Translations under genes and position numbers: made by a program
The notes under the pieces: model-generated
The model's input: only the letters and a program-made list of their open reading frames with translations
Told to the model about the DNA's origin: nothing
The model's database searches: none
Source of the DNA: Zingiber officinale
Lineage: Eukaryota; Streptophyta; Magnoliopsida; Zingiberales; Zingiberaceae
NCBI RefSeq assembly: GCF_018446385.1
Contig: NC_055990.1
Location: forward strand, 30,713,891 to 30,777,890
DNA length: 64,000 nt
Direction of reading: 5' to 3'
Shown here: positions 3,834 to 57,451 of the stretch, in pieces
Layout of the letters: every line of letters starts with the position of its first letter
How positions within the stretch are numbered: the first letter of the stretch is position 1

Positions 3834-4364
3834 ATGATTTACTCACATGGGTTACACGGATTGATTTCCAATCGAGATAGGGATATGAAGTCTACATCAG
3901 GCTATGTGTTTACTTTAGGAGGTGGAGCCATTTCATGGAGGAGTGTTAAGCAGAAATGCGTTTCGGACTCAACCATGGAAGCTGAGTATGTAGCAGCCTC
4001 TGAGGCAGCTAAAGAAGCAGTATGGCTCAGGAACTTTCTAATGGACTTAGATGTGATTCCTGGTTTGCCCAAAATCATCACAATTTATTGTGATAATAGC
4101 GGTACAGTTGCAAACTCGAAGGAACCACGAGCTCATAAGGCAAGTAAACATATAGAGCGCAAGTACCACCTGATACGAGATATCGTGAAGCGAGGAGAAG
4201 TTGTCATCGCCAAGATTGCATCAGCGGATAACCTGGCAAATCCTTTCAGCAAAAGCTTTCGATCGGCATGTGGAGGGAATGAGAATCAGATGTATGGTAG
4301 AAGATATGACAGCTTAGTCATTAGTATAAGTGGGAGATTGTTGGAGTGTATACTGAAAGCCTAA
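3834..4364 (+). pseudogene. Copia-A RNase H remnant
   Basis: The open frame of 176 codons shows the copia RNase H blocks [20 protein letters not shown], a [22 protein letters not shown] block, a [10 protein letters not shown] block and a [13 protein letters not shown] block. The Asp-Glu-Asp residues of the nuclease are visible. The native end of pol lies near the polypurine tract at 4329-4338; the last codons to 4364 are read-through into the LTR. The upstream connection to RT is lost. Confidence 0.8.
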
Positions 4365-5295
4365 GCTTTGTAAACATTCATTATGAATAAAGAATCACAT
4401 TTGGTCAAATTGTCTACATTTGTTTGTAGTTGTTCATTTAATTTATATTGTAGATAACATAGTATGTGGTGCCACATGCAGAAGATGATGTTATCAGTAC
4501 CTTATAAATTATAAACAGTAGCTCACGACCAAAATGGAAAGGAACAAACCATTAGAAGGTCGTAGTGTAATTAGGTATTAGTTTATCTTGACTATATAAT
4601 TACACTAGTACACTTAGAGTGTATTGAGTAGGACCATTTGAGGTCGTTTCTTTTATACTGACTTTATAAAGGAGCAAAGACCTCTGTTATTATGGAAGTG
4701 TGTGCTCTTAATCCTAATATAATAACAAGCACATATATTTGATATTTATTTCTTTAATTTATCAATGGGTGAGATTTAGTTCGATGAATCAATAAGCCCG
4801 ATAAGTTGGGAAATGATATTACTTATAGTGTGTGTTGTTGATTATAGAAGGAAACTGTGTCCTAGAGATACTAGGTTGATAATGTCCTCAAGAGGAGCTC
4901 ATAAAGATTGTCATGTTAAACCCTGCAGGTGGACTTAGTCCGACATGATAATAAGGTTGAGTGGTACTACTCTTGGACTTAGATATTAATTAAATGAGTT
5001 GTCAGTAACTCACTTAATTAATGGACATTCGATATCTTAAACACAGGGAGACTAACACACTCATAATAAGAAGGAGCCCAAAAATGTAATTTGGGATTGG
5101 TGCGATAGTTCAATGATAGTTCTCTAGTGGAATGAATTATCATTGATAAAATTAAGTTGTGTGTTCGGGGCGAACACGGGATGCTTAATTTTATCGGGAG
5201 ACCAAAACCAATTCCTCCTCTCGGGCCCTATCGTAGCCTCTTATTTGTAGAGTTCTATACCCACCTATACCCACCTTCTATACCCACCCAATAGG

Positions 5296-5391
5296 GGCCG
5301 GCCAAGCTAGCTTGGGAAACAAGCTAGGGCCGGCCTAGGTATAAGATTGGGTGGCCGGCCCTAGCTTGAACCCAAGCTAGTGGGGCCGGCC
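5296..5391 (+). promoter_or_regulatory. Paired GGCCGGCC inverted repeats in Copia-A U3
   Basis: GGCCGGCC occurs at 5296, 5328, 5353 and 5384. Between the first and second, and between the third and fourth, the arms CTAGCTTG and CAAGCTAG face each other across 5-nt (GGAAA) and 4-nt (AACC) loops. Two long hairpins or cruciforms are therefore possible. Further single GGCCGGCC copies lie at 5723 and 5917. Function is not known; position and form resemble the arrays in elements B, C and D. Confidence 0.6.
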
Positions 5392-5841
5392 AAAATAAAT
5401 TAAAAAGAATTTTAATTTTAATTTTTATTATATGGAAGAAATAATTTATTAAAGAGAATTAAAATTAAATTATCTCTCTTGTAAAATTTACAAAAGATTA
5501 AAGGAAGAGATTAGATCTCTTTCCTTATTTGTAGATTGATGAAATATTTTATTTTCTCTTTAAAATTATCCACATGTTGATAAAATTAAAATTATAGAAA
5601 TTTTCTTTTATCAACCATGAAGAGATTTTTAGAGAGAAATTTTATTTTTAAAATTTCTGGAAACAAATTAGGAAGTTTTAATTTGTTGATTAAAACTTGT
5701 CTAATTTTTTCTTCATTGATGTGGCCGGCCACTTGAATTTAATTGGGGAAATTTTATTTTATTTTTCTCAATTAAATCATGTTAAGGAAATTGAGGAAAT
5801 TTTATTGTAATTAAATTTCCTAATTTGCCTAGGCCAAGGAA

Positions 5842-5849
5842 TATAAAAG
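5842..5849 (+). promoter_or_regulatory. TATA box of Copia-A LTR
   Basis: TATAAAAG lies in the second half of the LTR in the sense orientation, where the U3/R junction is expected. Confidence 0.5.
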
Positions 5850-6740
5850 AAGGGGTGAGGGTGCCTTCATTAGAGACAACATCTATTATTTCTCTCCCTC
5901 TTTTGTTCCTTGGTGTGGCCGGCCATCCTCTCCCTCTCTTCCTCTTGTGGTGGCCGAATCTCCCTCTTCCATTGGAGCTCTTGTGGTGGCCGGATACTAC
6001 TCGGAGAAGAAGAAGAAGAAGGAGAGAAAGCTAGCATCTCTTGGAGCTTGGTTAGTGTTTTGATTTTCTTCCTTGGTGAAGCTTTTCCTTTGTGGCCGAA
6101 CCTAGCTAGGAGGAGAAGGTGGTTGGTGGTTTCTCATCTCGGAAGATCGTTGCCCACACAACGTCCGAGGTTAGAAGAGGAATACGATAGAAGATCAAGA
6201 GGTTTTTTTACAAGGTATAAGTAGTAATTTTTCTTTCCGCATCATACTAGTTATTTATGGAAATAATACCAAATACAAGAGGCTTACATTCTAGAATTTC
6301 GAATATGTTTTTCGATATTGTGTTCTTTAGGTTTTTCTTTTCCTTGTGATTTGATTGTTCTTTTCGGTTAACCTAAAGTTATTTTAGGAAATTAAATATT
6401 AGATTTCTATAAAAGGTTTTGTCTAGTCGGTGGTGGTTGCTCCCATATCCAAGAAGGTCGTGTGCCTCGCCACGTCAATACTGGGAACCAATTATGGAAA
6501 TTAATATTTAATGGAATTAATAACTTAAGGTGATTTGAGTCGAACGTGTTAAGTTCCGCAGGAGATCCAAGTCAAAACCTAAAAGAACAAATAGATTAAG
6601 TTTTGGATCAAACGTGTTAAGTTCCGCAGGCGATTCAAAATTTAATTTAAAAGAACACATGGTAGCTAGGAAAAGGTTCAGATCTTTGTACAAAATTTTT
6701 GTACAGTGGAACCTCTAGGTTTTCCGTGTAGCAACCAACA

Positions 6741-6994
6741 TTCTCCACCCTTGGTAGTTACCATAAAGGAGAGTTTTATTAGTGGAGGGTGTGTGTGTAG
6801 GTGTGGATCCTTGGACTAGTCACCTCTTGTGAGGTGGATACCAAGTAAACCAACATTGTTAGCGTTGTGTGATTTGTTTCTGTATTTTCCGCTGCGCATC
6901 TTTGAAGAAACAAGCAACGCCGAGCACCGAGCACGCGACGAGCTATTCACCCCCCCCTCTAGCTACTTTCGGTCCTAACAAGTGGTATCAGAGC
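6741..6994 (+). repeat. Element B 5' LTR remnant and primer-binding site
   Basis: 6741-6980 is the 3' end of the LTR, ending CCTAACA. It is nearly identical to 12740-12983. TGGTATCAGAGC at 6983-6994 is the initiator tRNA-Met primer-binding site found in plant copia elements. The rest of this LTR lies on the far side of Copia-A, outside the window. Confidence 0.85.
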
Positions 6995-8907: not shown

Positions 8908-11488
8908 ATGTGTTAGAGAGTGTCAACTCCGATTAGAAAGGTAGTTAACCCAACTTTGAGGAAATTGACACTCAAGGAGCATTTTGAAGGTTTTTGTTAA
9001 CCTTTGAAAATGAAATGGAATTATGGTTTACTCTTTGGAAAGAGTAAAATGTGCCCAAATTTGAGAAGTCTTGATTTTATTTTAAATGGCACAAATTTGG
9101 GAAAATATAAGAAATACCAAGTTGGAATTTTGATATTTTCTTAGAAATTAAAGGCAATTTAAGCCTTAATTTGAAGTGCTAATCTTATGGAAAAATGAAA
9201 TATGCCAACATTTGAGAAAAATGTTTAATTTCAATTGGCATAAATTAATCAAGGGATTTAGAAATGTCAATTTAGGTTTTGACATTTTCTTGAAGCATTT
9301 AGGGCAATCTAGGTTTAACGTTTTAAGTTAAAAACAAGTGGTATATTTTGAGTTAGCTAAGTGGTTAAGGATACTTAGATAGGTAATCTAGGTATATTTT
9401 ATTTATGCTAAACTTTGCCATGATTGTTTGCCCATTATATGCCATGACATCATATTTAGTTTTGTATTTTGCATTCATTCCTTTATTATGAAAAATACAA
9501 AAATACCATGTCATGTCATACATACATCATGTAGCTATAGGGATCCTTCTTTTGAAAGCTATTTTATTTTGATGTATGTCATAACATTATCATGCATTAG
9601 TTTGATTTCCTTAAAATTAAGGACAAATGTTTTTACCAACAAGTGGTATAAACAAATGGCATTTATATACAAGTTATACCAACAAGTGGTATATCAACAA
9701 GTGGTATACCAACAAGTGGTATTTATACACAAGTGGAATCAACAAGTAACATCCTTGGTGGATGTTCATCACTCAAAATGCCTAGATAGATATGCATGAT
9801 CCCTAGATTAGGGCAAAATCAAAATTTACATCTCACAAAGGCCTATAAGATGACTTGTATATGTTTTAGTGCACATTAGATACAAGTGAGATGTTAGGAT
9901 GATGAACAAAACTCAAGATGTTGATTTAGTGCATTCTTTTGAGTTTTAAGTTCATCAAAACACATAGTTATGTGTTTTCCCATCATTGGGAAAGCTAATG
10001 TACAAGTCATGTGCATTATGCCCAAGGAACATGGTGGGATATTGGTTTTGGAAAATGTTTTTAAAAATGCTTTTGGAAAACCTTGGTGAAGGCTATCTTT
10101 TGATAGTAATCATCATTGAATAGTTAGACACAAACTTGAAGAAAACACTAAAGTTTTTGTAAGTTTTCAAGTTTGTGTCAATCTTTGAAAATATTATGTA
10201 TTTTCATAGAAAACTATTTTTCCATGATAAAGTATGCCCTAAATAATGTCTACACGAAATTTCATGATTTTTGGATTTTTGTAGAATTTTCTAGGGGTTT
10301 CTGAAGTTGGCTGAATTTGAAATTCAGCAACTATCAGAGCTCCGATCGATCCATGGATCGATTGGAGTGCCTGAATAGATCAGTGGATCGATTCAGAAGG
10401 CAATTCTCGCGAGCAGAAGCTCGCTGGATCGATCAGCCGATCGATCTACACATCCTGAATCGATCAGTGGATCGATTCAGATAGGTTCAATCGATTGGAA
10501 CCCAACTCCAATCGATCCAGGATGCTGATTTTGGCTGAGAAAGCCTGATTTCAGCATTTTGAACCTTGTTTAGTCAATGTAATCATTCCAAACCCCTCAA
10601 AATACATGTGTATAAATAAAAAGGGAGTTTTCATGTTGAAAACAAGGATGGATTGGTTAAGGAAGACTATATTGAAGTTTAGGTTGAGGCTTGTTTCAAA
10701 TTTTGAATATTTGAACCTCAAAGCTTCTAAATTTGGGTTTCCTAAAGGATTAGGGATTTCAAGTCATTGTTGGTGCAATGACAGAAGTTACCACCATGTC
10801 TTTAGGGGGAGGGACTCTTTAAATGCATGAAAATTATTTTTCATGAACCTTGGAAGGTGGTTAACCTTCCGTTAAGAAAATGCTCAATGTTGAGCATTTG
10901 AATTTTAATGGGGAGTGGATATCCTCACCGTTCCACTGGTTTCAAGTGGATAATGCTCAAGGATGGGCATTTGCCTACATTGAGGGAGAATGTAGGGTTA
11001 AGGATAAATGAAGGGTATGAGGCCTTCATTTGGGTCATTAGACCTTGTTAATGCTCCAGGGCGAACATTGGTTGAAAATGAAGGGAATGAGACATTCATT
11101 ATCGTGTTGATCACAACGAGTGAAGTTGTGAACAATGATGCGCAACTCTTCAGGGGGAGAGTTTCAAATGGAAAGGTTCAACGAGTGAAGTTGTAACCAA
11201 TGATGAGTAACTCTTCAGGGGGAGAGTTTTCAACAAGTGGATTTGTTGATATGTGCCCAAAATTGGGGCATGGGTTGATGTGTGCTCAAAGATGGGTTGA
11301 TGTGTGCCAATAGGGAGAGAATGTGTGGTTCAAGTTAGGTCTTCATTACCTATGGGGGAGGTCATAGGGGGAGAATGAAGGGAACCAACATTCATACTTT
11401 GACATGAATGGAGTTAAGGCTATGGGATTAGCTTAACTCAGAATGGTCCAAACTTAAAGGTATTGTCAAACATCAAAAAGGGGGAGAT
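8908..11488 (+). other. Non-coding internal domain of element B
   Basis: No gene is seen. About 8990-10270 aligns by eye at high identity with 16600-17840 in element D, so it is a domain shared by two non-autonomous families. It includes a run of ACAAGTGGTAT-type repeats at 9640-9730, the palindrome cassette at 10298-10618, and AGGGGGAGA-type purine runs at about 10800-11490 that end in the polypurine tract. Confidence 0.6.
10298..10618 (+). promoter_or_regulatory. Internal hairpin cassette with ATCGAT core in element B
   Basis: The cassette opens with TTTCTGAAGTTGGCT (10298) and closes with TATAAATA (10611). In between are inverted repeats built on ATCGAT: 10340-10367 (12-bp stem, loop CATG, one G.T pair), 10371-10396 (loop AGTG, one mismatch), 10409-10424 (GCGAGC and GCTCGC, loop AGAA) and 10455-10480 (perfect 11-bp stem, loop AGTG). 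Element D has a matching cassette with a different core. Function is unknown. Confidence 0.55.
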
Positions 11489-11717
11489 TGTTGGTGCAAT
11501 ATCCCTTAGGTCAAGGTTGACTGAGTTGACCAAGCTTGAGTCTTGGTCATAGTTTCGATGTTTGACAATACATGTAGACACAATGGACAATACAGGTGCA
11601 GTTGTTCATGTGAGGAGATTCTGATCAGGGACTGATCAGTGTGAATGAAGAAAAGTCAAGTAGGTCAAGAGTGACCGGATACCTGACTGGGAAGTCCTAA
11701 CTGGAAGGTTAGGCAGA

Positions 11718-11950
11718 TGGAAAGTCCTAGTGAGTAAAGCTAGGCAGAAGGAAATCATGGTGAGTGAAGCCAGGTGAAAGTCCTAGTGAGTGAAGCTAGG
11801 CAGAAGGAAATCCTGGTGAGTGAAGCCAGGTGAAAGTCCTAGTGAGTGAAGCTAGGCAGAAGGAAATCCTGGTAAGTGAAGCCAGGTAAAAGTCCTAGTG
11901 AGTGAAGCTAGGCAGATGGTAGGTGAAAGTCCTGGTGAGTGAAGCCAGGC
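11718..11950 (+). repeat. Tandem repeat of about 56 bp in element B LTR
   Basis: About four copies of a unit with two similar halves: AGTCCTAGTGAGTGAAGCTAGG and a variant AATCCTGGTGAGTGAAGCCAGG. The halves differ by paired changes (CTAG and CTGG against GCTAGG and GCCAGG), so each half keeps its own inverted complementarity. Confidence 0.65.
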
Positions 11951-12204
11951 AAGGGAAAATCCAGATGGATCAAGGATGATCGGACATCTGGTGTTGGGAA
12001 GTCCAAGTAGGTCAAGGGAGTGACCGGATACTTGGCACGAAGAGAAAAGTCCAAATGGGTCAAAGGGATTGACCGGACACTTGGTGGGGAGTCCTGGCAG
12101 GTCAAGGGAGTGACCAGATGCTAGGCATGATGTACCATCAGGTCAAGGTTGACCGGATGTTAGTTTGAGAGGCTTGTGACTTAGTTTTGGGCAAAAACCA
12201 AGAG

Positions 12205-12431
12205 TTGGATCGATCAGTGGATCGATCCAGGAGCTAGATCGATCAGTGGATCGATCCAGGCTTTTCTCAGCGAACAAAGAGCCTCTGGATCGATCCAGAG
12301 GTCCCAATCGATCAGTGGATCGATTGGGACGCTGCTGGTTCGCGCGATAAGCGCTGGATCGATCCGTGGATCGATCCAGGCGTTTTACCAGAGCACAGAG
12401 GCACTCTGGATCGATCCATGGATCGATCCAA
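12205..12431 (+). promoter_or_regulatory. Hairpin array with ATCGAT core in element B U3
   Basis: Six inverted repeats lie in about 230 bp. 12301-12330 is a perfect 13-bp stem (GTCCCAATCGATC, loop AGTG). 12354-12379 has an 11-bp stem, CTGGATCGATC, with loop CGTG. 12406-12431 uses loop CATG. 12205-12230 and 12234-12259 use loop AGTG. 12283-12300 is a loopless 18-nt palindrome. Outer stem bases differ between copies but still pair (CCCA with TGGG, CTGG with CCAG), which is compensatory variation. Confidence 0.7.
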
Positions 12432-12983
12432 AGCCTCCCCGATCGATTGGGAATAATCGAATCGATCGGGATCCGACCGTTGCGTCGTATTTGAGCCGCA
12501 GACGAGCGTTGTCTTCGGCATCTCTTCACCGATTCATTTCAGATCTTCACTAGCTCCTCCACAGCTCTTCTCAAGCTCGAGATCGCCAGTTCTTGAAGGT
12601 TCTTGGAGGTTCTTCCAAGTCAAGAGGCGGATCAAAGCAAGAAGAAGAAACTAGGGTTAGGGTTTTTGCACTCATTGTAAGCTTGTAAGCTTGTATTTCA
12701 TTACGTTTCCCTTTCTTCTTGTATTGAGTCTTGTAGGGCTTCTCCACCCTTGGTAGTTACCATAAAGGAGAGTTTTATTAGTGGAGGGCGTGTGGGTAGG
12801 TGTGGATCCTTGGACTAGTCACCTCTTGTGAGGTGGATACCAAGTAAACCAACCTTGTTAGCGTTGTGTGATTTGTTTCTGTATTTTCCGCTGCGCATCT
12901 TTTAAGAAACAAGCAATGCCGATCACCGAGCACGCGACGAGCTATTCACCCCTCCCCCCCTCTAGCTACTTTCGGTCCTAACA

Positions 12984-13496
12984 CCCTTGAAGGCGCCTTC
13001 AAGCCTGTTGAGGGCGCCTTCAACAGGTCAGTTTTGACCGTTTACGTGCGGATAAAATTTTATCCGCTGACCGAGCTGGAGGCACCTTGAACCTTGTTGG
13101 AGGCGTCTTGGACCCTCGGGATAGACTTTCCAGGACCTATAAAAAGGCCCCTGGAGCTAGAAATTCAACAACAACTCAAGCAATTAATCTGTAAGTAATT
13201 CCTAAGCAACTAAGTGAGCTTCCAAAGTGTAAAAGGCTTCTCCGCCTTCAGAGAAGGAGATTTTTCTTACTACGCTTTTCTACTGTCCTGAATTAACAAC
13301 CTCCTTGGTTGTAACCAGGTTAAATCTCTGAGTCTTTTCTATTTTTGTTTCTTTTTCTGTTTCATTAATTTAGTTGCTATTATTTTGCTGATTTAATTTC
13401 TGAGTTGAAATCCGAGGAGGGTAGTTTTTATTTTTGTTTTCAGCAATTCACCCCCCTCTTGCCGGTCTCCGCTGCACCAACAAGTGGTATCAGAGC
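12984..13496 (+). repeat. Element C 5' LTR remnant and primer-binding site
   Basis: The remnant begins inside the GGCGCC array, at the point where element B inserted, and ends GCACCAACA at 13482. A TATA box (CTATAAAAAGG) lies near 13138. TGGTATCAGAGC at 13485-13496 is the initiator tRNA-Met primer site. Confidence 0.85.
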
Positions 13497-13547: not shown

Positions 13548-14959
13548 ATGGCCGGAGCGAACATCCATCCCCCGAAGTTCGACGGAGACTTCGTGACGTG
13601 GAAGCACAAAATGGAGGTATTTTTAAAAACCAAATTTGACATTCTGTTAATAATGAAATATGACTATGCAGTTCCGAAAGATAAGGAGGAAAATACCTGG
13701 ACGAAAAAGGAACAAGCAGATTTCGTTGCCAACGGAAAGGCTGAGTTCCGCCTACTCAGCGTTCTACCGCCGCAGGAGGTAAATCGGATCGGAAGCTATG
13801 ATTCCGCGAAAAATCTCTGGGAAAAATTCCTGGAGCTTCACGAAGGTACTTCAGAAGCAAAGCTAGCGAAGCGCGACATCCTCCGGAACCAGTTAACGAA
13901 CCTCTGGATGAACCAAGGCGAGAAGGTAGCGCAACTCCAAGCGAGAATCAAGGAGCTGATAACGCAACTAACGAACCTTGGAGAAGAGGTAACCAACCGG
14001 GATTCCATCCAATACGCGCTCAATGCCTTCCCGAGAACTCCAAAGTAGGCCTCCTTAGTAGATGCGTATTATATCTCTAAGGACCTCGAGGTAAGTACTT
14101 TAGAACAATTATTTTCCACTTTTGAACTTCACGAATCTCAAGTTTCAGAACCCAATGAAGCAGAGAAGACAAGTCAGAACATTGTCTTAAAGGCAAAGAT
14201 GAACAGTTCTGACTCCGAAGCCTCAGTCGACAAATTCGAAGCGGCACTACTGGTAAGGCGCTTCAATAAGTTTTTCAGTAGTAATAAATTTAAATCGCAG
14301 AGGCATCATTGAAAGAAGAGGACGGTTCGCTGCTACAATTGCAACGAAGAGGAGCACATCAAAGATGACTGCCCAAAGCTAAAGAGAAAGGAGAAAGAAA
14401 GGGAAAAGCCAAAATACAAGAAGCCAGAACCCTCCAAACATAAGAACCTAAAGGCTACGTGGGATGATTCGTCATCCTCCGAATCGGAAGTCGAAGAATT
14501 CTCGGGACTAGCACTGATGGCCAACCATCAGTAAGAAGAAACGTCCAACTCAGAGATGAGCATCGACGAAGGGGGAGGAACGTCAGAAGAAAGCTGTAAT
14601 AAAGGGGGAGCGTCACCAGATCAGGTAAGTAAGGTACGCAACCTAACCCCGAATCAAACTTTTAGATTTATTAAAGCTCTTTCTAGAGAATTAGATAAAT
14701 TAGAAAAAGAAAATGAAAATTTGAAATCAGAAAACGAAAATTTAAAATTAGAAATTGAAAAATTAAATAATTGAAAAATGATGCATGCTTAAAGAAATTT
14801 CCAAAGTCAAAAATTAGAATTTATGGTAAATTAAATTGGTATATATGGAAGCATCAAGGATAACTTAGGAAAATTCCTAAGGATTATATACCCCCTAAGT
14901 TTTTGACTAATCCTGTAAGAAGGAACCTTTATTGGGTTCCAAAAACTTTGCTGGTTTAA
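13548..14959 (+). pseudogene. Element C gag ending at a WVPK motif
   Basis: The start MAGANIHPPKFDGDFVTWKH lies 52 bp after the primer site. A UBN2-type gag core (WKHKMEVFLKT through LAKRDILRNQLTNLWM) is open to 14048, where TAG interrupts. The frame then goes on with ASLVDAYYISKDLEVSTLEQ. Later come a zinc knuckle CYNCNEEEHIKDDCP (about 14331), an acidic stretch, and a coiled-coil of LEKENENLKSENENLK type (about 14690-14770). A frameshift follows the coiled-coil. The frame ends YWVPKTLLV and stops at 14957-14959. A protease should follow WVPK in an autonomous relative, but it is absent. Several in-frame stops make this copy inactive. Confidence 0.8.
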
Positions 14960-15631
14960 ATTTCTCTTTTAATTAAAAGCTTACAGTGAGAAAATTAAAC
15001 ATTGAAATTCTTTATGGAAGCTTTGCCTAAGGAAGTAGTTGTTGCTCCAATAACCAAGAAGGCCTAGTGTCTCGCCACGACCTGGAAGCTAAAATATTGA
15101 AAGAAAATGTTTAATTAACTTTCTGAAAAAGCATTAAACAATAATTAAATAATGCTTTGAAAGTTTATCAAATATTTGTTAAAATAAAAAAAAATTCCTT
15201 AGAAATTTTTTTAAATAATTCTAACTTAATTTTTTTTGTTAGAAATTTTTTCTGGAAAACTTCATTTGACTTAGACTGTTTTTTTTGGAACATTTAAAAA
15301 GTTTACTTAGGATTTTTTTAATTGACTTAGAAAATTTTTTTTAAAAAAATTCATTTTTACTTAGAAAACTTTTCAAAACTTCAAGCTTACTTGAAAATTT
15401 TTTACTTAAGACCCCATTTTTACTGTGATCAAAGGGGGAGAGAAAAATACAAGTTTAGGGGGAGTTAAGAAAAATTTAAAAGTTAAATTTTTTAAAAAAA
15501 TTGTTGCAATTTTACTAATTATAAAAATTATGCTTAACTTGTTAGTTTAGTAATTTCTCTTTAAATTACTTTTTATGTCTATTTTAACCCTAACTTGAAT
15601 TTGGGTTGATGCACATCAAAAAGGGGGAGAT
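14960..15631 (+). other. Non-coding AT-rich tail of element C
   Basis: No gene is seen. The stretch is rich in runs of T and A and in GAAAATTTTTT-like repeats. It ends in AAAAAGGGGGAGAT, the polypurine tract that primes plus-strand DNA synthesis. Confidence 0.6.
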
Positions 15632-16538
15632 TGTTGGACCCTGTGGTAGTTTTGATGTGATCAGCCAAGTTGGTTAGGTCCTGCTGTATTTGATCCCTGT
15701 GTCTGAGTGTGCAAGAGCTTAGGAACACAGGAAGTCGAGCGAAAGACGCAGCTAGCGAGAAGGACGACACGGAAAGGGAACCGACGGGCTTAGTGCGTCC
15801 GAAGGACGAGAAAGCTGCGGAAGAGTACTCCGGTGGGTGTGAAGAGCGTACGCGGCGTTCGAGGGACATTAAGCCGGGATGGAAGGCTGCTCGAGGAGAA
15901 GGCCGGGAATTGGTTTCGGGTGAGCACTATTCCGGTTGCCCGCAATCACCCAAAAGAATGGAGCGTCGGAAGCTAAAGAAACCAAGCTGGAAATTAGGCT
16001 ACCAGCTTGGAGGCGCCCTTGAAGGCGCCCTGGAGGGCGCCCTTGAAGGCGCCTTCAAGCCTATTGAAGGCGCCTTCAACAGGTCAGTTTTGACCGTTTG
16101 CGTGCGGATAAAGTTTTATCCGCTGACCGAGCTGGAGGCGCCTTGAACCTTGTTGGAGGCGCCTTGGACCCTCTGGATAGACTTTCCAAGAGCTATAAAA
16201 AGGCCCCTGGAGCTAGGAATTCAACAACAACTCAAGCAATCAATCTGTAAGCAATTCCTAAGCAACTAAGTGAGCTTCCAAAGTGTAAAAGGCTTCTCCG
16301 CCTTCAGAGAAGGAGATTTTTCTTACTGCGCTTTTCTACTATCCTGGATTAACAACCTCCTTGGTTGTAACCAGGTTAAATCTCTGAGTCTTTTCTGTTC
16401 TTGTTTCTTTTTCTGTTTCATTAATTTAGTTACTATTATTTTGCTGATTTAATTTCTGAGTTGAAATCTGAGGAGGGTAGTTTTTATTTTTGTTTTCAAC
16501 AATTCACCCCCCTCTTGCCGGTCTCCGCTGCACCAACA
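15632..16538 (+). repeat. Element C 3' LTR
   Basis: This 907-bp LTR starts TGTTGGACC and ends GCACCAACA. The U3 part ends in the GGCGCC array and a TATA box; the last 499 bp match the 5' remnant with a few percent of differences by eye. The plus-strand frame 15709-16146 lies wholly inside the LTR and is not a gene. Confidence 0.85.
16012..16201 (+). promoter_or_regulatory. GGCGCC palindrome array and TATA box of element C LTR
   Basis: GGCGCC occurs at 16012, 16024, 16036, 16049, 16069, 16137 and 16158. The 16-nt palindrome TTGAAGGCGCCTTCAA is present twice (16043-16058 and 16064-16079), separated by GCCTA. TATAAAAA follows at 16194-16201, about 30 nt after the last core. This is the likely promoter region of C; a role of the palindromes in transcription is inferred from position only. 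Confidence 0.65.
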
Positions 16539-19452
16539 CTTAGTATGTTCTTAAGGAACTAAGAGCAAATCTAAATCTTAAGTCTAAATGTTTAATCCTT
16601 AAGAGGAGTAATACGTGTCAAAATTTGAGAAGTTGAATTTAATTTAAATTTACACACTTGAGAGAAGCAAAAGTAATGTCAAATTTAAAATTCGGCATTT
16701 TCTTATGGAATTAAGGGAGATGTAAACCTTAATCCAAATTATCACTCTTGCAAAGAGTAACATGTGCCAAATCTTAAGGAATTATGTGTGAATTAAATTG
16801 GCACAATTTGGAGAATCATATGAACTACCAAGTTGAGATTTTGGTATGTTTCTAGGGAGCCAAGGGCAAATCTGGGGCTCAAAATATAAGGTGATTACCT
16901 CTTTGGAAGGATAAATATGCCAAAATTTGAGGAATGTGCTTAATTTTAATTGGCATAAATAAATCAAGAGATTAAAGAAATGTCAAGTTGGGGTTTGGCA
17001 TTTTCTTGATGAAATTGGGCAATCTAAGGTTAAATTTTGAGTTAGCTAGGGTTAAGAATACTTAGATGGGTAATCTAAGTAAATTTTATTTATGCTAACT
17101 TGCCATGATTGTTTGCCCATCATATGCCATGACATCATATTTAGCATTCACATTTTATTATAAAAAAATACAGAAATATCATGTCATGTCATACATATAT
17201 CATGTAGCTATAACATGCTTTGCTTTTGAAAATTACTTATTTTGATGTATATCATTAATCATCATGCAGTATGTCAATTTCCTTATAATTAAGGACAAAA
17301 TACATTTATTATGTATGGAAGTGTCCCAACAAGAGGGAGCATATCAAGTGACATCCAAGATGGATGATCATGATTTTTACAATGCCTAGATAGAGATGCA
17401 TGATCTCTTAGTTTAGGGCAAGACCAAATATACATCTCACAAAGAACTATAAGGTGACTTGTATGTGTTTTAATACACATTAGATACAAGTGAGATGTTA
17501 AGATGGTGAACAAACTCAAGATGTTGATCTAGTGCATCTTGTTGAGTTTTAGGTTCATCAAAACACATAGTTATGTGTCTTCCAATCATTGGGAAAGCTA
17601 ATGTACAAGTCAGGTGCATTGAGCCCAAAGAACGTGATTGGATATTGGTTTTGAAAATAATTTCAAAATGCTTTTGAAAAACCTTGGTGAAGACTATTCT
17701 TTGATAGTAATCATCATTGAAAAGTTAAACACAAACTTGAAGTTTTCAAATTTGTATCAATCTTTGAAAATAGGAAGTATTTTCATATAAAACTATTTTT
17801 CCCTGATAAAGTATACCCTAAATAATGTCTACATGAGTTTTCATGATGAAAACAAGTATGGATTAGTTAAGAAAAATCAAAGTGAAGTTTCGGTTGAGGT
17901 TTAGTTTCATTATTGAATTTTGAACCTCAAAACTTCGAGTTTTGATTTTCCTAATTATTTAGGAACCCCAAGTCATTGTTGGTGCAATGATATAAGTTTG
18001 ACCATGTTTTTAGGGGGAGTTACTATTTGAAAACATAAAAATCTTTTCCAAGACCAAAAGGAGGTCAAGTGTTAAGGTAGCACATGACATTGGTATGGGA
18101 GGTGTTACCAAGAACAAGGGAGAGTCATCCAAGGTCAATAAGAAGGAATATACTAGGGTAACATATAATTATAGCAAGGATAAGGTGTCCAAGATTAATG
18201 ACAAGAAGAAATTAACCAAAGACAAGGTGTATAAGGTTAAGAATGTGAGTTTTGTAGGCCAAGTGTCACCTGAGGTGCACCGAAGTGACCTAGTCATAGT
18301 AAATGAGTCATTTAGGGAGGTGGCTAAGATTAAGAGCTCAAGGGGGAGCTCAAAGAGTCTTTGGGACATATGGTAAATGATCTTAAGTGAACCAAGATAT
18401 GCCAAAGGGATTAGAGATGGATTTGAGTCTCTATTATACTTGGTTGGCACAATTGGGTTAAGTTTCATGCATGAAAATATGACATTGGGGTTATATTACA
18501 TGAAAATTAGTTTTTGATGTATAGATGCCATATAAACCAATGCTAGGGGTGCATTGTGGGTTGGTATGAGCAAATACATCAAGAGGAAGTCAAAACTAGG
18601 ACTTTAGGTCAAGGTTCAATTGAACCATTTAGCTAGTTTTGGATTTTGTGTCAATCTTAGAATTGGTGATAGATACATTTTGTAATATATTTTTCCCAGG
18701 TGGATAAGGGTTCAATAGACCTCTCCACAAAATTTGGGAATTTTTGGAGGTCTATGGAATTTCTGGTGCATTTCTGAAGTTGGCTTGAAAAGGTTGATTT
18801 TTACAGAAATAGGGTACCAGTCGACTGGTGCAGATACCAGTCGACTGGTAATAGTATTTTTGAGCACAGAATGTCTCTATAAGATCATTTTGATGAGGGC
18901 AGTCGACTGGTTCCGATACCAGTCGACTGATAACAGTGTATTTCAAACACAGAAGGTTCTGTGAGTGGAAATCTAAGGGGGCAGTCGATTGGTACCTAGT
19001 TCAGTCGAATGATACCAGCCTAAACGTGTTTTTCAACGTTGTTCTTGACCGTGTCAACTCGTTTAAATGTATGAGATCCATGGGGGATAAATACATGAGT
19101 TTAGGGTCAATTTGGATGACATGTTTTCAACAATTAGGATATTGTTGAAGCTCTTTTTGATGTATGGAAAAGGGGGAGAAGTTTAGGTTTAAGTGGGAAA
19201 CTTATACACCTTTGCAAGAAATCCTAGCTCGAGGGGGAGCATAGGTGAAGGGGGAGCGATTGTTTAGGCAAAGGGAGAGAAGTTTACCTTTGCGGGAAAT
19301 CCTAGCTCAAGGGAGAGCTTAGGTGAAGGGGGAGCCTAGGGATTTAGGTTCCATTATTTATGCATGAGTCGATTTGCATATTTATTTGCATATATATTAT
19401 ATTTATGTTTCCCTAAATTAAACAGGTTGCCAAACATCAAAAAGGGGGAGAT
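16539..19452 (+). other. Internal region of element D
   Basis: This region is mostly non-coding. 16600-17840 parallels 8990-10270 of element B. The only notable frame is 18095-18376 (93 codons, Lys/Ser/Val-rich, with NKKEYTRVTYNYSKDKVSK). Its composition resembles the Lys-rich gag spacer of element B, so it is probably a gag remnant rather than a gene. GGGGGAG-type purine runs fill 19170-19450. Confidence 0.55.
18771..19093 (+). promoter_or_regulatory. Internal hairpin cassette with GTCGAC core in element D
   Basis: The cassette opens with TTTCTGAAGTTGGCT at 18771 and closes with GATAAATA at 19086, 315 nt later; the matching distance in element B is 313. Inside are pairs of CCAGTCGACTGG sites separated by 6 nt (loops GCAGAT and TCCGAT) and one degenerate pair. 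The ends are homologous to B's cassette while the palindrome core differs. Confidence 0.55.
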
Positions 19453-20514
19453 TGTTGAAGCAACCTAGGTGCCATAGGTTTTGATGTTTGGACAAAGGTT
19501 TAAGTTAGGTTTATTGTTGTATTTGATATGCATTGTGAGTGTGCAGGATACAGGTACAACAAGGAAAGTCCATGTGTGATCTTGGCAAAGAAAGAAAGTC
19601 CAAGAATGAGTCTTGGCGGTGTAAGTCCAAGCATATAGTCTTGGCAACGTAAGTCCAAGTGTGACTTAGCAATGGATGAAGTCCCGGAGGTGAGGAGCCT
19701 CTTGGCAAAGGAAGACCCGACAATATGGACAAGGCCGAAGGAAGCTCCAGAAGGCAAGACGTGAAGGATGGGGAGACATCCGAGGGACGCGAGGCTGATG
19801 GAGGAGGCTAGAAGGCTAAGTCTAGGTTGGTCGGGCGAGAACGAGTGCATGAGAGATTGTACTCGGAGCAAAATCCTAGTTTTATGGTTTAATGTAGCGT
19901 TACGGTAGTGTTACTGCAGCAGTTAATGTAAAGTTAGCGTAGCAGTTACTGTAGCGTTACTGTAGCAGTCGACTGGTGAATGGACCAGTCGACTGATGCA
20001 CTATAGCAGAGAGTCGTTGGGCTGGCACCAGTCGACTGGTGCATGGACCAGTCGACTGGTAACGGGCAAATCAGGTTGCTGATTTGTTCTAAGCTCTATA
20101 AGAAGGAGCTTGGTATGGCCAGCCAAGGTGACGAAATTAGACTTGGTTAAAGCCTAATTAGTAGTCACAAAAAGTGCTCAAGGTTCTCTTGTGTCCAAGT
20201 GTTCTTGGTTGTTGTTGTGGTGAGGTTTCTCCACCCACAAGGAGTTGCTTGAGTAGCCGGAGTTTGCCGGGGGCTAATCCACCGAAGGATCGGGATCGTC
20301 CACCTTACGGACAGCCGTGGAGTAGGAGCAAGTTATCTCCGAACCACGTTATATTGACGTGCATTGGTTTGCATTTCCTTTCTTTGTCTTTAGCTTTCGT
20401 ATTCATATTTAGTTTCATATTATTCCACTGTGCAACTAACGAATACGTAGGAAACCATCAATTTGGGTGAGACGCTATTCACCCCCCCCTCTAGCGGACA
20501 CATCGGTCCCAACA
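19453..20514 (+). repeat. Element D 3' LTR with GTCGAC hairpin array and TATA box
   Basis: The LTR starts TGTTGAAGCAACC and ends GTCCCAACA. GTTACTGTAGC-like short repeats occupy 19890-19965. GTCGAC cores lie at 19968, 19988, 20031 and 20051 and form two pairs. Each pair has CAGTCGACTGGT facing ACCAGTCGACTG across loops GAATGG and GCATGG. TATAAGAA at 20097 follows the last core by about 40 nt. Minus-strand frames at 19465-19871 only translate the repeats. Confidence 0.75.
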
Positions 20515-55844: not shown

Positions 55845-56760
55845 TCATCCGCTCGGATTATTTATAGACGCTCGTCTCTTGATTTTTAACCCAGCGGTGC
55901 TCGTCGGCGCGGATATTTATAGCCGGTCTGGCGGCTCTCGATCTTTAACGATGAGCTCGTCGGTATTCCGCTTCGGAGGGTTTATAGACGCGGCTCGCCT
56001 CTTGATTTTTACGCGGTGCTCGTCCGGCGCGGATATTTATAGCCGTCACGGCTCGATCTTTAAGCCTCGAGCTCGTCGGTATTCCTTCGGAGGGTTTATA
56101 GACGCGGCTGCGTCTCTTGATTTTTAACGACGGTGCTCGCCGGCGCGGATATTTATAGGCTCGGCCGCGGCTCTCGATCTTTGACCGGGCTCGTCGGTGA
56201 TTCCTCGCCGAGGGTTTATAGGCGCGGCTCGTCTCTTGATTTTTAACGACGGTGCTCGCCGGCGGCGGATATTTATAGCCGTCGGCGCGGCTCTCGATCT
56301 TTAACTCCGGCTCCGCTCGGAGGGTTTATAGACGCGGCTCGTCCTCTTGATTTTTAACGACGGTGCTCGCCGGCGCGGATATTTATAGCCGGTCGGTAGC
56401 GGCTCTCGATCTTTAACGCAGCGGAGCCGTCGGTATTCCTGAGGGTTTATAGGCCGCTCGCTCTTGATTTTTAACGACGGTGCTCGTCGGCGCGGATATC
56501 GGTCGCCGCGGCTCTCGATCTTTAACGACGCTGCTCGTCGGCGCGGAGGGTTTATAGACGCGGCTCGTCTCTTGATTTTTAACGGCGGTGCTCGTCGGTG
56601 CGATTTATAGCCGGTCGGCGTGTCTCGATCTTTAACGACGGAGCTCGTCGGTATTCCGCTCGGAGGGTTTATAGACGCCGGCTCGTCTCTTGATTTTTAA
56701 CGACGGTGCTCGTCGGCGCGGATATTTATAGCCGGTCGGCGCGGCTCTGCGGTTTAACGT
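55845..56760. repeat. Eight-copy tandem repeat of about 120 bp in Tat-new
   Basis: Units start with TTTATAGACGCGGCTCGTCT at 55861, 55981, 56095, 56215, 56325, 56446, 56551 and 56668. Each unit has two related halves: TTTATAGACG...TTTTTAACGACGG and TTTATAGCCGG...TTTAACGACGG. Units vary in length (105-121 bp), mostly by loss of CGG- or CTCGG-like pieces. Confidence 0.85.
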
Positions 56761-57451
56761 CTGGGCTAGACGGCCGTCAAGGCTAATTTTGACACTTCCG
56801 TTCGGAGTTGCTCTTCGCCTTTCCCCCAGCTTGGATAATGCCCTCCTGGCCGCACGGCTCAGGATCTACTTCATCGAGTATTTTGGCTCGGATAATATAC
56901 CTCCGTTCGAAGGGTACGGGGCCTTCGATCTTCGAGCGTTTGGCTTGACCAATTTAATTCCGGCCGAACGGCACGGGTTATTTGCTTACAAGTCTAACCA
57001 CATAAACCTCCCGGCCGATCGGCCTGGGGGCCTTCGCGCTACGATGATAATGCCTTATATTCGCTCCTTTGACTTTTCATCTCTGCATTTCAAGTATTTA
57101 GTCGAAAAATGAAATACACAGGGTGATTTACAGTGATACACCTTTCACCCCGCCTTGAAATGGAGGTGGTTCGCCCACTGGTCATCTAGGCTAGTCGTCC
57201 TCATCCTCCGGATGTACTGGCCGAGCGGAGCTTCTCGATGATTTTGAAAGGGCGCCCATGGCGCTCAAGCTTGCCGACGTCGCCGACGCTTGACTTTCTT
57301 CCGCACGAGATCGCCGACTTGGAACGATCTGGGATTACGCTACGGTTGTAGTTTTGCTTCATCCACTGCTGATATCAGCCGAACGGACGCCTTTGCCCTC
57401 TCCTCTTCTACCAAGTCCAGCTCTATGTTTCTTCGTTCGGTGTTGTCATCA
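56761..57451 (-). other. Tat-new region between tandem repeat and integrase
   Basis: The plus-strand frame 56789-57112 is open for 107 codons but resembles no family I know and shares the GC-rich repeat style of the element. 57120-57450 in reverse should hold the C-terminal end of integrase (a chromodomain is not seen). No gene called. Confidence 0.4.

Follow-up and report, generated by a model that had tools for sequence, protein, structure and literature searches.

Nested elements in the window

The DNA analysed here (the window) is a stretch of 64,000 nucleotides from Zingiber officinale, NC_055990.1, positions 30,713,891 to 30,777,890 of the forward strand. It holds nested LTR retrotransposons, among them four families, A, B, C and D, with palindrome arrays in their LTRs (Table 1). 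Family A is nested in the 5' LTR of B, as seen from TTCTC on both sides of A and from B's own 5' array, which lies just upstream of the window (C5:30710387-30710622). B sits inside C: its 3' LTR end abuts a piece of the C 5' LTR (12984-13490) that matches the C 3' LTR (16040-16546) with 95.5% identity. For B, 6741-6980 and 12740-12983 are 95.9% identical.

Table 1. Features of families A to D in window coordinates (RM, repeated motif)
Feature	Position	Strand	Remarks
A 3' LTR	4339..6740	+	Ty1/copia element without Sirevirus marks, inserted in the 5' LTR of B
A stem-loop	5296..5391	+	four GGCCGGCC sites and AGCTAGCTT arms; one stem-loop, aligned in 21/21 rows
B PBS (GGTATCAGAGC)	6984..6994	+	after the 5' LTR end
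B linker pair units	10336..10520	+	ATCGAT 9 times at 10345-10511, upstream of the 3' LTR
B terminal PPT AGGGGGAG and AT/TG attachment site	11479..11490	+	further octamers at 10804, 11152, 11217, 11366
B 3' LTR	11489..12983	+	TG...CA ends, polyC signal at 12945
B RM array	12206..12470	+	five N4 pair units, one looser pair, one single palindrome
B N4 pair units	12206-12229, 12234-12259, 12301-12330, 12354-12379, 12404-12433	+	
B looser pair	12438-12470	+	
B single palindrome	12286-12299	+	
C PBS	13486..13496	+	after the C 5' LTR end
C terminal PPT AGGGGGAG and AT/TG	15622..15633	+	
C 3' LTR	15632..16538	+	TG...CA, polyC near the 3' end
C RM array	16012..16163	+	GGCGCC 7 times, spacings 12, 12, 12, 21, then after a gap 21
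D linker	18820..18936	+	two GTCGAC pairs, CG-to-CG 20 bp; 4 sites at 18820-18922
D terminal PPT AGGGGGAG and AT/TG	19443..19454	+	
D 3' LTR	19453..20514	+	TG...CA, polyC at 20478
D RM array	19964..20060	+	two GTCGAC pairs, CG-to-CG 20 bp

B, C and D are Sirevirus elements, carrying all the marks of that class that could be tested. The PPT octamer AGGGGGAG occurs 25 times in the window against 1.5 expected, and 17 of these copies are clustered before the 3' LTRs of B (5 at 10804-11479), C (5 at 14570-15622) and D (7 at 18012-19443). In all three the last octamer is followed alike by AT/TG. The PBS TATCAGAGC follows the 5' LTR at 6984 in B and 13486 in C (the D 5' junction was not located), and is not diagnostic, being found also in A and in two other window elements (24493, 39180). 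The polyC signal lies near the LTR 3' end at 6946 and 12945 in B and at 20478 in D, with one further match outside these elements at 57144; in C it reads CACCCCCC. An inverted repeat surrounds the junction of PPT and 3' LTR, with exact arms of 15 nt in B, 10 nt in C and 13 nt in D, and 6 nt in A; the published Sirevirus repeat has a mean of 28 nt at 89% identity.

Family A, which is no Sirevirus, has copia-type domains upstream of its 3' LTR and lacks the marks tested: no AGGGGGAG PPT precedes the TG of its 3' LTR, where the sequence reads AGTGGGAG, and no polyC signal was found at the LTR end. Its 5' LTR/PBS junction was seen in the genomic copy L169, and a broken piece of A gave a weak RT domain match below the cut-off (E 0.0018). 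The sequence-only reading had called the four families unrelated. This does not hold, as B, C and D share the Sirevirus marks and the internal region of B matches the stretch preceding the D 3' LTR at 72-84%.

The coding matches are a copia gag (7.2e-15) and a zinc knuckle in C, and zinc knuckles and a gag match under the Pfam cut-off in B (22.5 bits, cut-off 27). No RT domain was found in the pieces searched, six of nine for B, four of five for C and one of three for D (stop-to-stop, at least 60 aa), and a Pfam scan of one long frame gave no match. Elsewhere the distance between neighbouring same-strand arrays is 5.6-6.1 kb in five instances each for B and D, with another D instance at 3.9 kb; for C it is 3.0-3.1 kb in five instances and 12.4 kb in another. 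These neighbours were taken for LTR pairs. The B and C elements look non-autonomous, and the array-paired elements would be non-autonomous derivatives.

Two tandem repeats were also seen in the window. One, with period 56, 4.0 copies and 93% matches, lies at 11720-11949 in the U3 of B, upstream of its palindrome array. The other, of about 119-nt units that are 81-87% alike, lies at 55845-56773 and has no connection to the arrays.

Palindrome arrays

Core counts in the 3' LTRs were compared with 500 dinucleotide shuffles each. The A core GGCCGGCC occurs 6 times (largest shuffle 1), the B core ATCGAT 13 times (3), the C core GGCGCC 7 times (2) and the D core GTCGAC 4 times (2). Each count exceeds all 500 shuffles, which rules out chance clustering and bears out the four clusters picked out by the sequence-only reading. 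That reading had ended the B array at 12431; the array is present but continues to 12470, and more ATCGAT copies occur in the B linker. The C linker has no GGCGCC copies. The idea that the arrays are private to single copies is rejected, since copies of all four families were found in the genome. The arrays of C and D had been placed 30-40 nt upstream of a TATA box, and indeed a TATA-like site lies 30 nt past the last core in C and 40 nt past it in D; the scan that found these detected none within 200 nt of the B array.

All four arrays fold strongly as RNA, with z scores of -10.0 (A), -11.8 (B), -8.5 (C) and -8.2 (D), and none of 200 shuffles was as low in any of them. The best 110-nt window falls below -40 kcal/mol in 21/21 A, 40/40 B, 32/32 C and 38/38 D close-copy rows. 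Three other LTR families in the window gave -40.8 (F), -43.2 and -52.6 (G) and -26 (E). Low folding energy alone is thus unspecific, because two of these three pass -40 with at most three copies of any core. In A, a correction to the facing pairs of the sequence-only reading, the four clustered sites make one near-perfect stem-loop of 96 nt with an MFE of -79.3 kcal/mol and a z of -10.0. A by-eye idea that the stem changes in A are mostly at CpG proved wrong, with 3 at CpG and 49 elsewhere. Family A is a non-Sirevirus copia LTR with a strong hairpin; the accessible text of PMC2829016 reports no RM in classic copia elements.

Close copies and array turnover

Close copies of each array were aligned. 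The 21 A rows comprise the window and 20 of the 39 other places scored; B is represented by 40 of 40 scored places and D by 38 of 40, and the 32 C rows combine 30 of 40 scored places with two B loci, L005 and L007, which match C as well. The 131 rows differ from the query by about 4-12%, and the stems, defined automatically, have 19 (A), 68 (B), 16 (C) and 27 (D) pairs. Double Watson-Crick changes number 1, 1, 0 and 0 in A, B, C and D against shuffle means of 0.21, 1.23, 0.28 and 0.16, a comparison of low power, while single breaks number 5, 51, 33 and 18 and single changes to G.T 8, 29, 9 and 11. Paired changes are no commoner than chance among close copies, so inserted copies appear to accumulate uncompensated changes, as expected of dead ones. 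The test speaks to the inserted copies and is uninformative about the source lineages.

Diversity in the arms versus the other columns is 0.033/0.037 in A, 0.028/0.100 in B, 0.055/0.088 in C and 0.027/0.088 in D. The A stem is thus no less variable than its surroundings. Because the 40 B rows were picked by the array itself, the arm to flank contrast was taken from a second B set chosen by flank outside the array (the window and 20 of the 39 other places scored). In several of its rows the first unit is truncated or wrongly aligned, and a column was used only if 70% or more of the rows had a letter there. The arms have a diversity of 0.037 (113 columns), the rest of the array 0.092 (131) and the outside 0.063 (58). 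The set has one double change; its single changes are 22 to sense G.T, 25 to A.C and 6 others, and there is no sign of RNA wobble in the B arms.

The B arrays gain and lose whole and half units, and deletions of 12 nt turn a 24-nt pair into one palindrome. The 3' LTR of B in the window lacks 12 nt that are present in its own 5' LTR (L043), which has the pair. The single palindrome at 12286-12299 is therefore either a deletion remnant or an earlier form.

The inverted-pair unit in other ginger LTRs

Exact matches to the junction number 6,484 (backward control 0), and twenty LTR pieces with Sirevirus-type junctions were taken from among them. These twenty were hand-picked for varied junction sequence, and the ten of them that hold units of the form CG[AG]TC-N2-8-GA[CT]CG give no estimate of prevalence. 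Together with B they provide 50 units in 11 LTRs. The core position is G..C in 29 of these, A..T in 15, A..C in 4 and G..T in 2. The 29 have an arm of the CGGTC form, which is itself no palindrome. The general arm is GATCGRTC, of which ATCGAT of B represents the A..T form; symmetry consequently belongs to the pair and not to the hexamer. The earlier observation that all cores are CG-centred palindromes was in part a choice of view.

The general pair GATCGRTC-N4-GAYCGATC occurs at 255,316 exact places genome-wide, and the same pattern read backwards at 28. In B and in the ten picked LTRs the unit is two reverse-complement arms of about 10 nt with a spacer nearly fixed at 4 bp, the spacer sequence being free.

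In 7 of the 20 picked LTRs a same-hexamer cluster was found that 0 of 200 shuffles reached; in one of them (L144) this cluster is a separate upstream 41-bp repeat. In 18 of the 20 a 110-nt window folds below -40 kcal/mol. The separate second repeat, with GTCGAC about every 41 bp (ccagctagGTCGACgggctgac), was seen in L134 and L144 upstream of 300, in the 5' part of the LTR. Another piece, L133, is an LTR mosaic: its upstream 200 nt or so are 90% identical to B and its 3' 650 nt or so are 76% identical to L129, which suggests recombination between Sirevirus LTRs.

Symmetry and spacing of the unit

Symmetry was tested by permuting the right arms inside each LTR (50 units, 11 LTRs, 2000 permutations). 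Of the 50 units, 33 are paired at outer position 4 and 37 at outer position 5. Permutation gives 24.4 and 24.7, and the observed values were reached in 2 and 0 of the 2000 permutations. Positions 3 and 8 show a weak excess (reached in 40 and 38 of 2000), and positions 1, 2, 6 and 7 show none in the same test. The core base does not covary within LTRs, with 44 of 50 paired versus 44.3 permuted. Restricted to N4 units, in the 8 LTRs holding three or more of them, the test gives 26 and 28 of 33 paired at positions 4 and 5 against 17.5 and 17.9 (0 of 2000).

The same symmetry is found genome-wide. Position 4 is T..A in 72,726 units and G..C in 55,303, and mixed in 6,816 + 6,664 = 13,480 against 69,682 expected from the arm frequencies if the arms were independent. 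The core is mixed in 5,035 + 4,959 = 9,994 of the 255,316 units. These genome and unit counts are places and not independent events, and whole-unit duplication contributes to them. The sequence-only reading had seen the outer stem bases of B change in step and had proposed that the inverted repeat itself is kept, with covariation against a shuffled control as the check. The claim gains support from the units, which exceed permuted arms at outer positions 4 and 5 across 11 LTRs, and from the genome-wide counts; it gains none from close copies, where the 131 rows (low power) gave no such signal.

Flanks of the C and D cores were compared in LTRs with at least three sites, one deaminated form being allowed. 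No within-LTR covariation was found round GGCGCC (total 100 versus 101.3; 27 sites, 6 LTRs) or round GTCGAC (90 versus 83.1; 36 sites, 7 LTRs), the latter set also containing unrelated upstream repeats that dilute it. Spacers were used to ask whether neighbouring units arose by inverted duplication, an idea that was rejected: 12 neighbour pairs gave 1.83 direct versus 1.67 inverted matches of 4, which is no difference.

The spacer is N4 in 72,726 of 88,064 T..A units genome-wide when N0-N14 is allowed, and the exceptions are N5 among the matches listed (100 rows, by eye). In 23 LTR pieces the inward arms are N4 apart in 37 of 53 cases (N0-20 allowed), and the outward arms peak at N14 (11 of 31). 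Measured from CG to CG in 26 sequences, linkers and A included, successive inward arms lie 12 bp apart in 29 of 37 cases, and outward arms are most often 20 bp apart (11 of 57). Within pairs the distance is 20 in D and 12 and 21 in C.

A putative dimer site and the alternatives

Our preferred interpretation, which the sequence evidence makes probable though by no means assured, is that B, C and D carry RM arrays in U3 and that the pair is a putative spaced site for a DNA-binding dimer. LTR transcription would be driven by a host dimer, each subunit of which binds one arm as its half-site. The arms would stay symmetric because one protein reads both half-sites, their sequence would drift between families as the protein or its preference changes, and the units would spread by duplication. 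RNA hairpins, formed as U3 enters the transcript through the 3' LTR, would be a by-product and possibly a source of small RNAs, as proposed for maize Sireviruses. The data establish the element class and the unit with its symmetry, spacing and abundance, from which we infer both protein binding and a promoter function for the arrays. Among the four roles guessed at by the sequence-only reading (binding-site array, methylation target, source of small RNA, by-product of duplication) the first is favoured.

A number of features support the dimer-site interpretation. First, symmetry is kept while the sequence varies. Second, the N4 spacer is near-fixed, and 12 bp is the prevailing CG-to-CG distance of inward arms. 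Third, the B arms vary less than the rest of the array (0.037 versus 0.092) and show no sign of RNA wobble. Fourth, B, C and D have the Sirevirus marks and share the position and palindromy of published RMs, C and D also the TATA spacing, and the inner arms of the ginger units recur in the Osr10 and Osr8 motifs. It is weakened by the core, which does not covary within LTRs, by double changes between close copies being no commoner than chance and by the null result for the C and D flanks. The A stem, which is not less variable, the rice and grape RM spacers of 1 and 0, the lack of any binding factor that PMC2829016 could identify as common to RMs and the absence of a TATA near B weaken it further.

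The main alternative is that the hairpins act as RNA, the 10-16 bp stems in the U3 of the transcript serving the element (packaging, stability, 3' end) or yielding silencing small RNAs. Array folding (z -8.2 to -11.8), the low-energy windows of all 131 rows and of 18 among the 20 other LTRs, and the small-RNA excess reported at maize Sirevirus palindrome clusters (PMC10760457) are all consistent with such a role. However, families F and G also pass -40, sense G.T changes are not above A.C, and a hairpin loop would not require a spacer so strict, near-fixed in length though free in sequence. We consider this alternative unlikely.

The arrays could also arise with no selection. Strand-switching in reverse transcription or repair would overwrite one arm with a copy of its partner, and units would be duplicated by slippage between arms. 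B arrays do change by whole and half units, as in the 12-nt deletions that distinguish the window's 3' LTR from L043, and paired changes are seen between units and not as point changes between copies. Such a process, less likely still in our estimate, leaves unexplained the lower arm diversity, the near-fixed spacer and the place of the C and D arrays upstream of TATA. Finally, it is very improbable that the CG-rich array simply sets the methylation state of the LTR as a CpG-island element with incidental symmetry: this suits the B array (CpG o/e 1.29, remaining LTR 0.43) and the stress that PMC2829016 lays on CpG islands, but the C and D arrays are near the rest of their LTRs (0.81 versus 0.76 and 0.74 versus 0.70), the A array is lower (0.44 versus 0.62), and CpG density needs no mirrored outer bases 4-5 nt away.

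The ginger RMs may, though this is doubtful, follow one regulatory grammar and not be a loose collection of palindromes: an inverted pair at near-fixed spacing, whose letters differ between families in a symmetric way. The CG-to-CG distance in this scheme would be 12 bp inside B-type pairs; a value of about 20 bp would apply from one pair to the next and, for D and some of C, inside the pair. Were the grammar true, roughly half a million half-sites would record the changing specificity of a host DNA-binding dimer. The 255,316 unit matches are a natural mutational scan of arm, spacer and symmetry, and could help to separate the DNA-binding from the RNA-hairpin interpretation. PMC2829016 left the role of the Sirevirus RM open, and the ginger units can be used from sequence that is already public.

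Comparison with known systems

The sequence-only reading knew no named feature of this kind, yet the B, C and D arrays match the RM of Sirevirus LTRs described by Bousios et al. 2010 (PMC2829016), a paper cited here, like PMC10760457, for the part of its text accessible to us. No description of the ginger arrays was found in the literature searched, and the accessible text of the ginger assembly paper (PMC8342452) does not contain the word 'palindrom'.

The published RM is palindromic and was found in 13 of 21 elements, in at least 8 copies, mostly in the upper half of the LTR, where it forms CpG islands. TATA averages 37 bp after the CpG island, with the RM cluster upstream. Extra linker copies occur in elements with an envelope-like gene, and the authors could identify no binding factor shared by the motifs. 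Like these RMs, the arrays of B, C and D are palindromic, family-specific and present in several copies per LTR. C and D share the position upstream of TATA (30 and 40 nt after the last core, none within 200 nt in B, against the published 37 bp from the CpG island), and B and D share the extra linker copies. Exact cores number 13 in the 3' LTR plus 9 in the linker for B, 4 plus 4 for D and 7 for C, compared with the published minimum of 8.

The motifs themselves can also be compared. By eye, the inner arms of the RMs CGGTCTGACCG (Osr10) and CGGTCAGACCG (Osr8) are CGGTC/GACCG, as in the ginger units. The Tnd-1 RM ACAATCGATTGT contains ATCGAT of B and the Vitis RM CGGTCGACCG contains GTCGAC of D, whereas GGCGCC of C is in none of the 13 RMs listed by PMC2829016. 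The CGG-CCG signature of RMs is present in the ginger G..C units (29 of 50), but the window's own B, C and D units lack it, as does Tnd-1. The ginger pairs have arms of about 10 nt, an N4 spacer and mirrored variation, while the spacers of the rice and grape RMs are 1 and 0, so N4 is not general to RMs.

Two other systems are related. The maize Sirevirus palindrome clusters of 2016 (via PMC10760457), with the motif CACCGGACNNNGTCCGGTG, have the same strong predicted hairpins in their LTRs and an excess of mapped small RNAs; PMC10760457 proposes a tug of war between regulation and silencing. Box I of Tnt1, named in PMC2829016, belongs to the symmetric activator boxes of copia elements and, likened by its description, shares dyad symmetry as a regulatory box. 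Family A is outside the RM class as published. The arrays of B, C and D are best taken as Sirevirus RMs, a known kind that they fit well, and the new part is a stricter description of the unit.
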